DNA of 55,242 nt, from assembly GCA_007131725.1 (NCBI GenBank), contig SLPZ01000051.1, forward strand, positions 1 to 55,242, written 5' to 3'. This document shows, piece by piece, positions 51,171-55,242 of the stretch (position 1 is the stretch's first letter; each line of letters begins with the position of its first letter). The DNA comes from Balneolaceae bacterium. GTDB lineage: Bacteria; Bacteroidota; Rhodothermia; Balneolales; Balneolaceae. The position numbers and the translations under genes are program-made. The notes below the pieces were generated by a model, which saw only the letters and a list, made by a program, of their open reading frames with translations, made no database searches and was not told the origin of the DNA.

Positions 51171-52125
51171 TGCCAGGTCAATTTTTAAAAAGTACGGATA
51201 ATGAATTTTACTCGTCTCAATAGAGGGAATAATCGATACGATATTCGTTCTTCAGTTTTATCTGCCGTCATTGTGTACTCTTTCAAGCAAAAGCCCAGGA
51301 AAAACTGCCAGGAGCGGTGCAAATATGAAGGATAGCAAAAGACCCGGCGGATTTCGTAAAGAGAGCTTCATTAGCACCACGATGAGTTTCCTGAACCCAC
51401 ATTTCACACACTAAAATTATATGAACCCAAAAAAGTCGTTAGACCTTTTTTGCCCTGCGGGCCGACATTGAAACACAAAGGTTTATGAGTATTTATTAAA
51501 GAATGAACCCTTACTAGTTTCAATATCGGGGTCAACCCCGACAAAACATTGGTTCACAATGATTTGTCGACCCTTCGGGCAAAATTGTCATTGTTCCAAT
51601 GACAATTTTGGGATGAAAACGATACACATCTATTTGTCATCACCTTAGAATTCAGTATCAACTTTTTAAGACTACCGGACTCTGTAGAAGAACGGCATCC
51701 AACCAAAAGAGAAAGAAGAAACAGACTATGGATTTTATTTAAGTCCATAATAGGGTGATGAGTAATGTTCCACAAAAGGTTTGGCGTTTCTGCGACCAGA
51801 CAGCAACCTAATAAATTCAACAAGAAAACTGAACAGGTCCACGGGTTCATCATTCACAAGCAAAGCGGTCATCTGTTGAACAGGTAGTACTCATCTTTTG
51901 CACGCGAAGCGAAATGGTTTGTTAGACCGCTGATTTTAATTTACCTGACAAACTGTTTGGATGAATAATTATCCCGGAAAATTCCAAGCATATCTGTTAA
52001 TAAATAAAAATGATAGGTTTGAAATAAAAAAATATGATATGCCGTTCATAAAACATTAAATAACAAACTGATAAATAAATTATAATAATTAAAACTTCAA
52101 TGAGATTGCTATTGAGTTCTGAGAG
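51171..52125. other. Long intergenic region with palindromes and possible gene debris
   Basis: 955 bases without a complete gene. AAAATTGTCATTG-TTC-CAATGACAATTTT (51581-51609) is a perfect 13-bp hairpin. CGGGGTCAACCCCG lies near 51526-51539. A short frame with a lipoprotein-like start lies at 51554-51748 on the minus strand. An AT-rich stretch follows from about 51940 to 52110. The region reads as decayed accessory DNA. Confidence 0.5.
51554..51748 (-). pseudogene. Possible remnant of a small lipoprotein gene
   Basis: 64-residue frame beginning MDLNKIHSLFLLSLLVGCRSS, cut here: the lipobox LLVGC is convincing but the mature part is short, has no conserved pattern, and its 3' end runs into the perfect hairpin at 51581-51609. 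It could be a lipoprotein 5' end truncated by insertion of a palindromic repeat, or chance. Confidence 0.25.
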
Positions 52126-53037
52126 CTACTGCTCCCTGGTGAACCCATGATCAACCAGTTTTTCAGCCAAAGCCCTGATATGAGCCGGGCCGACCTCGCA
52201 GCATCCCCCTATGATACCGGCACCGTGTTTTGCCCAGCCCAGTGCATACTCGGCATAGGCGGCGGGATCAAGGTCTTTTCGCGCCTCCAGCACATCTACT
52301 GTGCCGCCTGGTTCCAGAGCATCAACAGATTTGAAGCCGTTGGCATAGCCGCCGTAGGTTACATTAAATCTTGAAAGCACATCCATTGCAGTGGTGACCG
52401 CTTCAGGTGCGGAGCAATTTACGAGGAGGCCTTCAGCGCCATTACGCACGACTTTTTCGGCTGCTTCGGCCAGAGATTCACCGGAACGTAACCTTGCGCC
52501 GTCACCGTCATCTACTGTGAAGGACACCCATACCGGCAGGTTGCTTTCCACGGCAGCCTTCACCGCGGCGAGCGCTTCGCGGGCCAGGGACATGGTCTCG
52601 CAGATGAAAAGATCGACACCGTTGGCTTGTGTCGCGACTATCCGGCGGTATGATTTAAGACAGGCAGCGTTGTCAGGGACGATTTCGTGGTGATAGCTCC
52701 CCACGAGCGGCGGCAGGCAACCGGCAATTCGTATATCTTCTTTTCCGCTCGCATCGCGCGCTTTATGGGCTGCGTCCAGCGCGGCAGCATGCAGCGGTTC
52801 GAACAGTCCGGGTTCAGCGTCCCGTTCCAAGCGCTGTGGCGTGGCGCTGTACGTATTCAGAATAATAACTTTTGCCCCGGCTTCGATGTAATCGCGATGA
52901 GCCGAAACCACCAGTTCCGGTTCATCCAGCATTACCTGGGCAGACCACAAGGGAGATGGCGGGCGGCTGCTCCGGCGCCTGAGTTCCTGGCCCATTCCGC
53001 CATCCATTACGATCACATTGTTTCGATCAGATTCCAT
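52126..53037 (-). CDS. Homocysteine S-methyltransferase family protein (MmuM/BHMT-like)
   Basis: 303 residues. Starts with VMDGGMGQELRRR, the family signature; zinc ligands are Cys in VNCSAPEAV and the CC pair in IIGGCCEVGPAHI. These enzymes transfer a methyl group, for example from S-methylmethionine or betaine, to homocysteine. The gene is visibly richer in G+C than its neighbours and flanked by repeat-rich DNA, suggesting horizontal acquisition. The methyl donor cannot be read from sequence. Confidence 0.92.
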   Translation of the reverse strand: MESDRNNVIVMDGGMGQELRRRSSRPPSPLWSAQVMLDEPELVVSAHRDYIEAGAKVIILNTYSATPQRLERDAEPGLFEPLHAAALDAAHKARDASGKEDIRIAGCLPPLVGSYHHEIVPDNAACLKSYRRIVATQANGVDLFICETMSLAREALAAVKAAVESNLPVWVSFTVDDGDGARLRSGESLAEAAEKVVRNGAEGLLVNCSAPEAVTTAMDVLSRFNVTYGGYANGFKSVDALEPGGTVDVLEARKDLDPAAYAEYALGWAKHGAGIIGGCCEVGPAHIRALAEKLVDHGFTREQ

Positions 53038-53146
53038 GATGGTACGTTTTTTATTTATGTTGTGATATCTGAATCATGCCATTCCAGCATTCAAGCGGTT
53101 TTATTGAATTCCGCGTTTATATTCCCAGGCTGATCCAATTTTCTAA

Positions 53147-53332
53147 TTAACGTGAGTTCGAGATAAGAATGATGATAAATGGTTACTATGTCATATTGAG
53201 CGAAATTCCGATGGTGCCTTTCCATCGGTATGAAGTCGAAATATAGAGTTTTCGACTTCGTTCCGGCCAAAAAGCGGTCGGAACTGCGCTCAAACTGACG
53301 ATACCTTTAGTTTTATCTCGAACTCACGTTAA
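53147..53332. mobile_element. MITE with perfect 20-bp terminal inverted repeats
   Basis: TTAACGTGAGTTCGAGATAA (53147-53166) and its exact inverse complement (53313-53332) bound 186 bases. Inside are nested hairpins: CCGATGG/CCATCGG (53208-53228), GAAGTCGAA/TTCGACTTC (53232-53259) and GTTCCG/CGGAAC (53260-53285). No coding frame. A solo end lies at 49507-49526. Confidence 0.85.
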
Positions 53333-53432
53333 TAAATAATTTCATGAACAGTTGGGTGATGGATAATAAAGATGAGTGGATTTGGGATTTTGCAAATTTA
53401 AATTAAAGCGAAATTATAGAGCGTATCGAAAT

Positions 53433-54854
53433 TTAATTCATTTGACCCGGATGTCCTTTTTGATCTTCAATTAACTTCTGATGGATAAAATCGAATAACT
53501 CTTTTTTATTAGATTCAGAATATCGTTGCTTTTTAGACTTAGATATTTGATTTATCAGCTTTGAAATTTTTAATAAGCTTTTTTTATCAAGATCCTTGTT
53601 GATTACGATTTTCTCTGTATTTGCGGCTGTCCTGTTATGCAGGTTAGAGACAACCTGCCTGAGTCGGTTAATAACTAAAAAACCTATTTCCGGATTTAAA
53701 GACTTTACTTTAATCTTCTCTTTTCTCTCAGAGTTGATATATTTTTTTATGTTTAATAAATCCTGAGGCTTAAAATCGCTAAAGTAACCAGTTGCATAAC
53801 CGCCGGAGCTTAAGATTGCAGTAAAAACTCCAAATGTTAATCCACCCGCAGCAGCATCAATTAATGCACCAATTGCACCTCCTCCAACTGCCCAAATAAA
53901 CCCACGTTGATGGGGGCTTAAATTACGTTTCCGGACAGTTTCGCTAAATAAGTCGTTATCTTCATAATTTTCAGTTAACTCTATTTCAATATCAATGCCA
54001 AATAATGAGTTAATTTTCTTCTGGCTTGAGTTCATTTTATTTATAACAAACTTGCGAGCCTGCTTCAGTAACTCTTCTTTGTGTTCATCATCATCTTGTA
54101 AAGGGTCGACATTTATTTCGAATTCATTATCGAATATTTCAAGAACTGTTTTTCTTATGATTCTTGCCGATTCCTCAAGTATCTGCTTTCTATCATTCTC
54201 TATTAAATCTATCACATAATTTATTGGTCTTTCCCATTTATCATGCAGATGGCTTAAAGCACTGAGAGTGCTTAGTTTTTCTTCAAAAGTTGTTTTATGT
54301 GGGTTAAAAACTTTTATAGTGTGAAAATACTGTCGTAACCCCTCTCTCCATGATTCTATGTGTAAATTTCCATCAATTGGATTAAGGATTGCAATTCTTG
54401 GCAAGTTTGTGAACTGAAGCAATTGAATTTCTCTTAAATAATCTTCCTTACTAAAGCTTTTTGAACAATCTGCTACATAAATAATGCAGGCAAAGTCTAC
54501 AAGGGGTTTAAATATTTCTACCTCACGCTTATGATCGGGATGGCCTTTATAAGTATTTACATACTTTTGTATTAGTTCTAATGGCCTTTCATGCCCTTCT
54601 TTTTTCCAGTCATTAAGTATTTCAAAAACTTCCGCTTGATTTTCAAAGCCTGGAGTATCCCATAGTGTAAGTAGCTTCTCCATATCTCCCTCACTATTCT
54701 TTTTGTAGTAATGATATGGCTTACTTTTAGTGGTAGTTCCTGCTGTACTTTTTATAACTACATTTGGGTCGTTAGTTAATGCTTTCACAAAAGTACTTTT
54801 TCCTTTATTAGGAGCTCCTGTAATTACAAAAACCGGTGTGGAATTTTCGCTCAT
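53433..54854 (-). CDS. Dynamin/Era-like GTPase with DUF3482-type C-terminus
   Basis: 473 residues. GTPase domain: P-loop GAPNKGKST (13-21), switch-I AGTTTKSKP, G3 WDTPGF, and a G4 position reading NPID instead of NKxD. The rest matches the DUF3482 family: a helical region ending DLF (about 300), then a glycine-rich hydrophobic hairpin (GGGAIGALIDAAAGGLTFGVF, cut here at 18 residues after the first) that could enter a membrane, then a basic helical tail. Its start overlaps the stop of the DUF2868-like gene by four bases, the known genetic pairing of the two families. AT-rich compared with the window. Function unknown. Confidence 0.85.
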   Translation of the reverse strand: MSENSTPVFVITGAPNKGKSTFVKALTNDPNVVIKSTAGTTTKSKPYHYYKKNSEGDMEKLLTLWDTPGFENQAEVFEILNDWKKEGHERPLELIQKYVNTYKGHPDHKREVEIFKPLVDFACIIYVADCSKSFSKEDYLREIQLLQFTNLPRIAILNPIDGNLHIESWREGLRQYFHTIKVFNPHKTTFEEKLSTLSALSHLHDKWERPINYVIDLIENDRKQILEESARIIRKTVLEIFDNEFEINVDPLQDDDEHKEELLKQARKFVINKMNSSQKKINSLFGIDIEIELTENYEDNDLFSETVRKRNLSPHQRGFIWAVGGGAIGALIDAAAGGLTFGVFTAILSSGGYATGYFSDFKPQDLLNIKKYINSERKEKIKVKSLNPEIGFLVINRLRQVVSNLHNRTAANTEKIVINKDLDKKSLLKISKLINQISKSKKQRYSESNKKELFDFIHQKLIEDQKGHPGQMN

Positions 54855-55242
54855 AATAGCCTATTTATATCTACTGATTCAGATACTTCAAGAAATATTC
54901 TTTTCGATCCAAGTTTTTGGTTGAGTGAAGCCATTCTATTCTTCCAATTCGATTCATTTACTGAATTAAGTTGATTAACATCTTCGTATAAAGGAATTAT
55001 TTGAATTCTGCTTTTTGAGTTATGATTTAAAATTTCAGTAAGCACCTTTTCAAACCTAATATTAGGCGACTCCCAATATTTAATAAATACAATGATATCT
55101 GAATTGTTATTGACAGTTGATTCATTGGCAATTTTTTGTGCTATAATTTTATCATTTTTTGTTGGGCTGATGCCGCTTATTTTATTTAAAGAGATGATAT
55201 TCCTATTCAAGTATTCCGATAACTTCTCTTCATTAATATTGG
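54851..55242 (-). CDS. DUF2868-like protein, C-terminal fragment (truncated by window end)
   Basis: The frame is open to the window edge (130 residues seen; start outside). The visible C-terminal part, with IIVFIKYWESPNIRFEKVL and IQIIPLYEDVNQ followed by SNWKNRMASLNQKLG, fits the end of DUF2868 proteins, where a V-K-x-W-x-P strand and a W-containing helix are conserved. Its stop overlaps the GTPase start, so the two are co-translated. The membrane helices expected earlier in DUF2868 are not in the window, so the assignment rests on this fragment and on the neighbour. Confidence 0.6.
   Translation of the reverse strand, partial: NINEEKLSEYLNRNIISLNKISGISPTKNDKIIAQKIANESTVNNNSDIIVFIKYWESPNIRFEKVLTEILNHNSKSRIQIIPLYEDVNQLNSVNESNWKNRMASLNQKLGSKRIFLEVSESVDINRLL

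Follow-up and report, generated by a model that had tools for sequence, protein, structure and literature searches.

The window analysed here, a stretch of 55,242 nucleotides, corresponded to one entire contig (C213) of the draft genome of a Balneolaceae bacterium, which is divided into 331 contigs. Two genes on the reverse strand occupy its right-hand end: an intact gene for a GTPase of 473 amino acids carrying a DUF3482 domain (positions 53433 to 54854) and, upstream of it, the part of a DUF2868 gene that encodes the C-terminal 129 residues (54851 to 55240) and runs off the contig end. As read in the sequence, the stop codon of the latter and the start codon of the former share the four bases ATGA (54851 to 54854, same strand). 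The GTPase gene had a GC content of 34% and a GC3 of 0.276, as compared to GC3 values of 0.38–0.57 in the other long genes of the window. The module is flanked by a MITE-like element of about 188 bp with terminal inverted repeats of about 41 nt (53146 to 53333, no strand assigned), which stands outside its function, and beyond this lies a homocysteine S-methyltransferase gene recognised by Pfam (52126 to 53037; 57% GC). Long matches to the MITE were found at about 20 other places in the assembly. Of the 28 genomes in the genus only 2 carried the methyltransferase, with 46% identity between the two copies. These results agreed with the first-pass annotation, which had described an AT-rich GTPase gene overlapping its neighbour by 4 bp and lying beside a MITE and a GC-rich foreign gene. 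A second dispersed repeat of about 200 bp (51421 to 51617), located between a β-lactamase-like gene and the methyltransferase, was 82–96% identical at around 10 full-length places in the same genome, with more partial ones in addition.

The architecture of the GTPase was established from Pfam, an alignment of 69 homologues and an AlphaFold2 model (pLDDT 86). An MMR_HSR1 G domain (E 5.4e-11, 43 bits vs. a cut-off of 21.9; residues ~7–200) preceded a clear match to DUF3482 (PF11981; E 7.1e-26, 91.7 bits vs. a cut-off of 29.2), so that the G-domain protein of the DUF3482 kind proposed earlier was recovered together with its glycine-rich hydrophobic hairpin, located at residues ~312–358. In the model the G domain was followed by two long helices (residues 205–285), the glycine hairpin and a small C-terminal part made of a beta hairpin and helices. 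Residues G325, G329, D333 and G338 of the glycine hairpin were conserved among the homologues; the model offered no structural support for insertion of this hairpin into a membrane, because confidence fell below pLDDT 50 at residues 331–355. The P-loop (GAPNKGKS, residues 13–20) and the G3 motif (DTPG, residues 66–69) conformed to patterns that were invariant in all 69 homologues (G..N.GKS and DTPG), as was T41. The G4-like motif read NPID (residues 158–161, in the context ILNPIDG). The first-pass annotation had pointed out this departure from NKxD as a trait of the present copy; the motif itself was correctly read, but it is not peculiar to this protein, since none of the 69 homologues has NKxD. 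N158 was invariant, the following lysine was absent from all 69 sequences, and the position of Asp161 was occupied by D in only 18 of them. The non-canonical G4 is thus a property of the family, and the protein lacks the signature of a canonical GTP-specific G protein. A comparable change is known in YchF/Ola1, in which G4 is NxxE and the change is thought to alter nucleotide specificity (PMC8779481); the domain architecture of these proteins is unrelated, and DUF3482 proteins fix only the N. The family-wide absence of NKxD makes nucleotide specificity a simple and testable question.

By fold, the G domain was nearest to those of Era, EngA, FeoB and MnmE (VIA Z 14–16), and by sequence it matched Der (E 2e-19). 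The P-loop GxPNxGKS with its potassium-contacting Asn, the DTPG motif and the fold are common to DUF3482 and to Era, EngA (Der), MnmE and FeoB, whereas DUF3482 is devoid of NKxD and of the second K-loop Asn, shows no recognisable KH or TrmE domain, and adds a helical, glycine-hairpin C-terminal half. Potassium-activated TEES GTPases carry one Asn in the G1 motif GXXNXGKS and a second one five residues past the G1 Lys (PMC3466195). In our alignment the first Asn was invariant (69/69) and the second position held S, A, K or T, never N. Der, Era and Nog1, which function in ribosome assembly, have the nearest G domains by sequence and fold, and we therefore considered whether the DUF3482 protein is a GTPase linked to ribosomes or RNA that is tethered to the membrane by chance; we judge this highly unlikely, given that the likeness to Der/Era-type GTPases stops at residues ~3–210, that Pfam recognises no RNA-binding domain in the C-terminal half of the DUF3482 protein and that its partner has predicted membrane helices. 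The order of elements in the model, with a G domain, a long helical pair, a hydrophobic tip and returning helices, also recalls a dynamin-like membrane-remodelling pair, in which the GTPase would polymerise on the membrane through a helical stalk and a hydrophobic hairpin with DUF2868 as adaptor. Foldseek did return the Campylobacter dynamin pair, EHD4 and dynamin, but with TM-scores of ~0.25 and alignments of rmsd above 30 Å, the true alignment being limited to the G domain, which is Era/EngA-like in both sequence and fold; this explanation appears improbable. Membrane remodelling in general, also raised in the first-pass annotation, may be a role of the pair.

The DUF2868 fragment of the window, taken alone, gave a sub-threshold match at the right place of the profile (E 0.07, 13.1 bits; positions 239–313 of 315, Pfam). 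When the same genome was searched with the DUF2868 profile (PF11067), a single strong place was obtained, at the end of a contig of 3,858 bases (C44), where a frame of 358 amino acids open at the contig end (L006:2783-3856) encodes the N-terminal part of the protein and matched profile positions 33–147 well above the cut-off (E ~1e-26, ranging from 7e-27 to 1.3e-26; 94.3 bits vs. 26.8). The C44 part ends in SVCVLI and the window part begins with NINEEKL; in an alignment with four Balneolales relatives a gap of only ~3–5 residues remained between them. Each half was present as a single copy in the genome and their GC3 values were similar (0.26–0.29). No k-mer was common to the two contig ends, and the adjacency of C44 and C213 therefore rests on the tiling, the single copies and GC3. 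The two halves are almost certainly parts of one DUF2868 gene, as judged from tiling and not from overlapping sequence. The upstream gene, described as DUF2868-like in the first-pass annotation, did not turn out to be unrelated once completed, the rest of it on C44 being DUF2868. Directly upstream of it on C44, the region L006:1402-2650 holds a Phd/YefM-ParE toxin-antitoxin pair as well as an HTH antitoxin-like gene with a small partner.

Four membrane helices were predicted in DUF2868 by hydropathy and by a model of the relative at L011 (pLDDT 87), with the segment that joins helices 3 and 4 predicted to be periplasmic and a five-stranded, Rossmann-like C-terminal domain predicted to be cytosolic; the window fragment corresponds to this last domain. 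Its top structural matches included EngB/YsxC (Z 9.1, 8.5, and 8.3), EngA (8.2), Gtr1 (8.2) and Era (7.6), and its beta-alpha order fits a G domain minus the second strand, which might indicate a degenerate G domain forming a nucleotide-dependent heterodimer with the G domain of DUF3482, as other paired GTPases do. These values were nevertheless tied with those of unrelated Rossmann folds (ketoreductase, Z 8.8; NarL, 7.4; flavoprotein, 7.3), so that a pseudo-GTPase is possible and not more. Moreover, no P-loop remains in the domain, Foldseek yielded no match with E below 0.08, and profile-profile comparison of this domain with the DUF3482 G domain gave a probability of 1%; we consider a degenerate G domain unlikely.

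Homologous loci were collected by an alignment-guided scan of genome contigs, which provided 80 loci, unlike a scan with the single protein, which gave no match. In 78 of the 80 loci the gene directly upstream of DUF3482, in the same orientation, was DUF2868; the two exceptions were L040, whose contig starts too late to show the upstream gene, and L026, with two genes in between. If C44 and C213 adjoin as the tiling indicates, the present copy has this same arrangement. Of 79 homologous pairs, 49 could have a 4-bp overlap. Among 129 Balneolales genomes, both families were confined to the same nine, eight of them from one genus of another family and the ninth being the present genome, the sole carrier in its own genus. 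This co-occurrence shows a shared function of DUF2868 and DUF3482, not contact between the proteins. The pair was known as mainly proteobacterial according to the first-pass annotation; its conservation as a pair stood, but not the restriction, as it was also found in Campylobacterota, Thermodesulfobacteriota, Verrucomicrobiota, Planctomycetota, Myxococcota and Balneolota. One further phylum-level match (G316) was rejected (27.7 bits, below the cut-off, in a frame with stops). In L026 the intervening genes (L026:5181-6850) look like genes for a DNA methyltransferase and a restriction endonuclease, the first overlapping DUF2868 by 4 bp and the second overlapping the first by 4 bp.

No third gene was conserved beside the pair in the 80 loci. 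Since the outside neighbours change with lineage, the two genes seem to make up the whole module. Neighbouring genes read by eye (among L061, L029, L054, and L072) illustrate this variety: the pair follows genes resembling a pilus-type chemotaxis operon in Kangiella relatives and a malic-enzyme-like gene in Sulfurovum, and precedes an ectoine-synthase-like gene in Marinobacter. A defence role, raised in the first-pass annotation, found no support. An anti-phage or other defence module on an island would fit the accessory site beside a MITE, the toxin-antitoxin-type genes upstream on C44 and a PADLOC match to LeoA; that match was weak and covered only residues 2–75 of the G domain, no defence genes were conserved beside the pair in the 80 loci, where neighbours were lineage-specific genes of ordinary, housekeeping kinds, and in the eight-carrier genus 8 of 10 genomes have the pair (completeness is 51 and 60% in the two non-carriers) and its neighbours were constant in the loci read, which fits a resident gene. 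Defence is thus an extremely improbable explanation. A phage-borne copy in "Pseudomonas phage Y10" (OQ572411, L009) was discarded, the record being unverified and containing bacterial chromosomal genes alongside the pair, which we take from their translations to be host thyA and lgt; because these and DUF2868-DUF3482 read as chromosomal, the record looks like host DNA.

The pair was absent from the 27 congeners. In the nearest congener carrying the aconitase-formyltransferase block (formyltransferase 91% identical) different genes come next, and all four congeners read lack the region downstream of this block in the window. A maximum-likelihood tree placed the window protein together with four Balneolota sequences, with full support (100/100), in a clade formed by Balneolota only, whose stem was long (3.25 changes per site). 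The low GC3, the variable site in congeners, the rare methyltransferase and the multicopy MITE make a lateral arrival likely. The module is thus part of an accessory region, with a probable lateral source within Balneolota; alternatively, it may have been lost from all other relatives. The horizontal movement proposed by the first-pass annotation probably holds, in view of the GC3 of ~0.28, the adjacent MITE and the absence from the 27 congeners. The closest pairs compared were those of Balneolales CSSed16 soda-lake MAGs (L010–L013), whose GTPases were 54–56% identical to that of the window, with ~40% identity over the C44 part of DUF2868 and the ATGA overlap in three of four. Their GC content was higher (51–57 vs. 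34% in the window) and their flanks, where present, consisted of a DUF4097-like gene (identified by eye) and a TonB-receptor-like gene, unlike the MITE, methyltransferase and upstream toxin-antitoxin genes found here. The window suggests transfer of both genes together, as one unit, into a genus otherwise devoid of them. Pairs of other phyla were more distant (~21–30% identity to the Balneolota-specific window clade, of which the window copy is AT-rich and in an accessory region). The pairs of the Thiodictyon plasmid pTs485 (THSYN_RS31235/31240), Neisseria and Pseudomonas comprised both families on one strand with DUF2868 first, as here, with the same G1 and G3 and likewise without NKxD, and in Thiodictyon the genes overlap as in the window. 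A tblastn search of plasmids with the DUF2868 part gave no match. The present copy adds a new member, probably placed laterally, to an already known, uncharacterised pair.

With about even confidence, we propose that the two genes constitute one membrane-bound NTPase module. DUF2868 would be an inner-membrane sensor or anchor, with four helices and a cytosolic Rossmann-like domain, and DUF3482 a G protein of the TEES type (TrmE-Era-EngA-EngB-Septin) that bears the glycine-rich hydrophobic hairpin. DUF2868 would recruit the GTPase to the membrane and sense the state of the envelope. Driven by nucleotide binding and hydrolysis, the GTPase would alternate between a soluble state and one in which its hairpin contacts the membrane and/or DUF2868, thereby altering envelope physiology. 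Direct evidence covers the family assignments, the coupling and co-occurrence of the genes, the conservation of the catalytic motifs G1–G3, the missing NKxD and the lack of a constant third partner; the physical interaction, the membrane insertion of the hairpin, the direction of signalling and a benefit to the cell are inferred. A more specific version, in which an NTPase with non-canonical G4 and a membrane-anchored pseudo-G-domain would form a new type of heteromeric GTPase/pseudo-GTPase switch of the envelope, present in at least seven phyla, seems quite unlikely.

In line with the first-pass annotation, which had stated that neither family has an assigned function, a full-text literature search found none for either, nor experiments on DUF2868 or DUF3482 beyond names in tables. 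The pair, whose two families always co-occur within the order Balneolales and lie together at nearly every homologous locus examined, in at least seven phyla, has no recorded function in the literature found. PA0344 of P. aeruginosa, a 50.5 kDa protein, was seen among soluble proteins resolved on a 2-D gel (PMC3240657). The homologue has a calculated mass of 50.0 kDa, and that PA0344 could be the DUF3482 protein is for now only a lead. Work on Thiodictyon recorded a higher abundance of one DUF2868 protein in the dark (PMC6413534).
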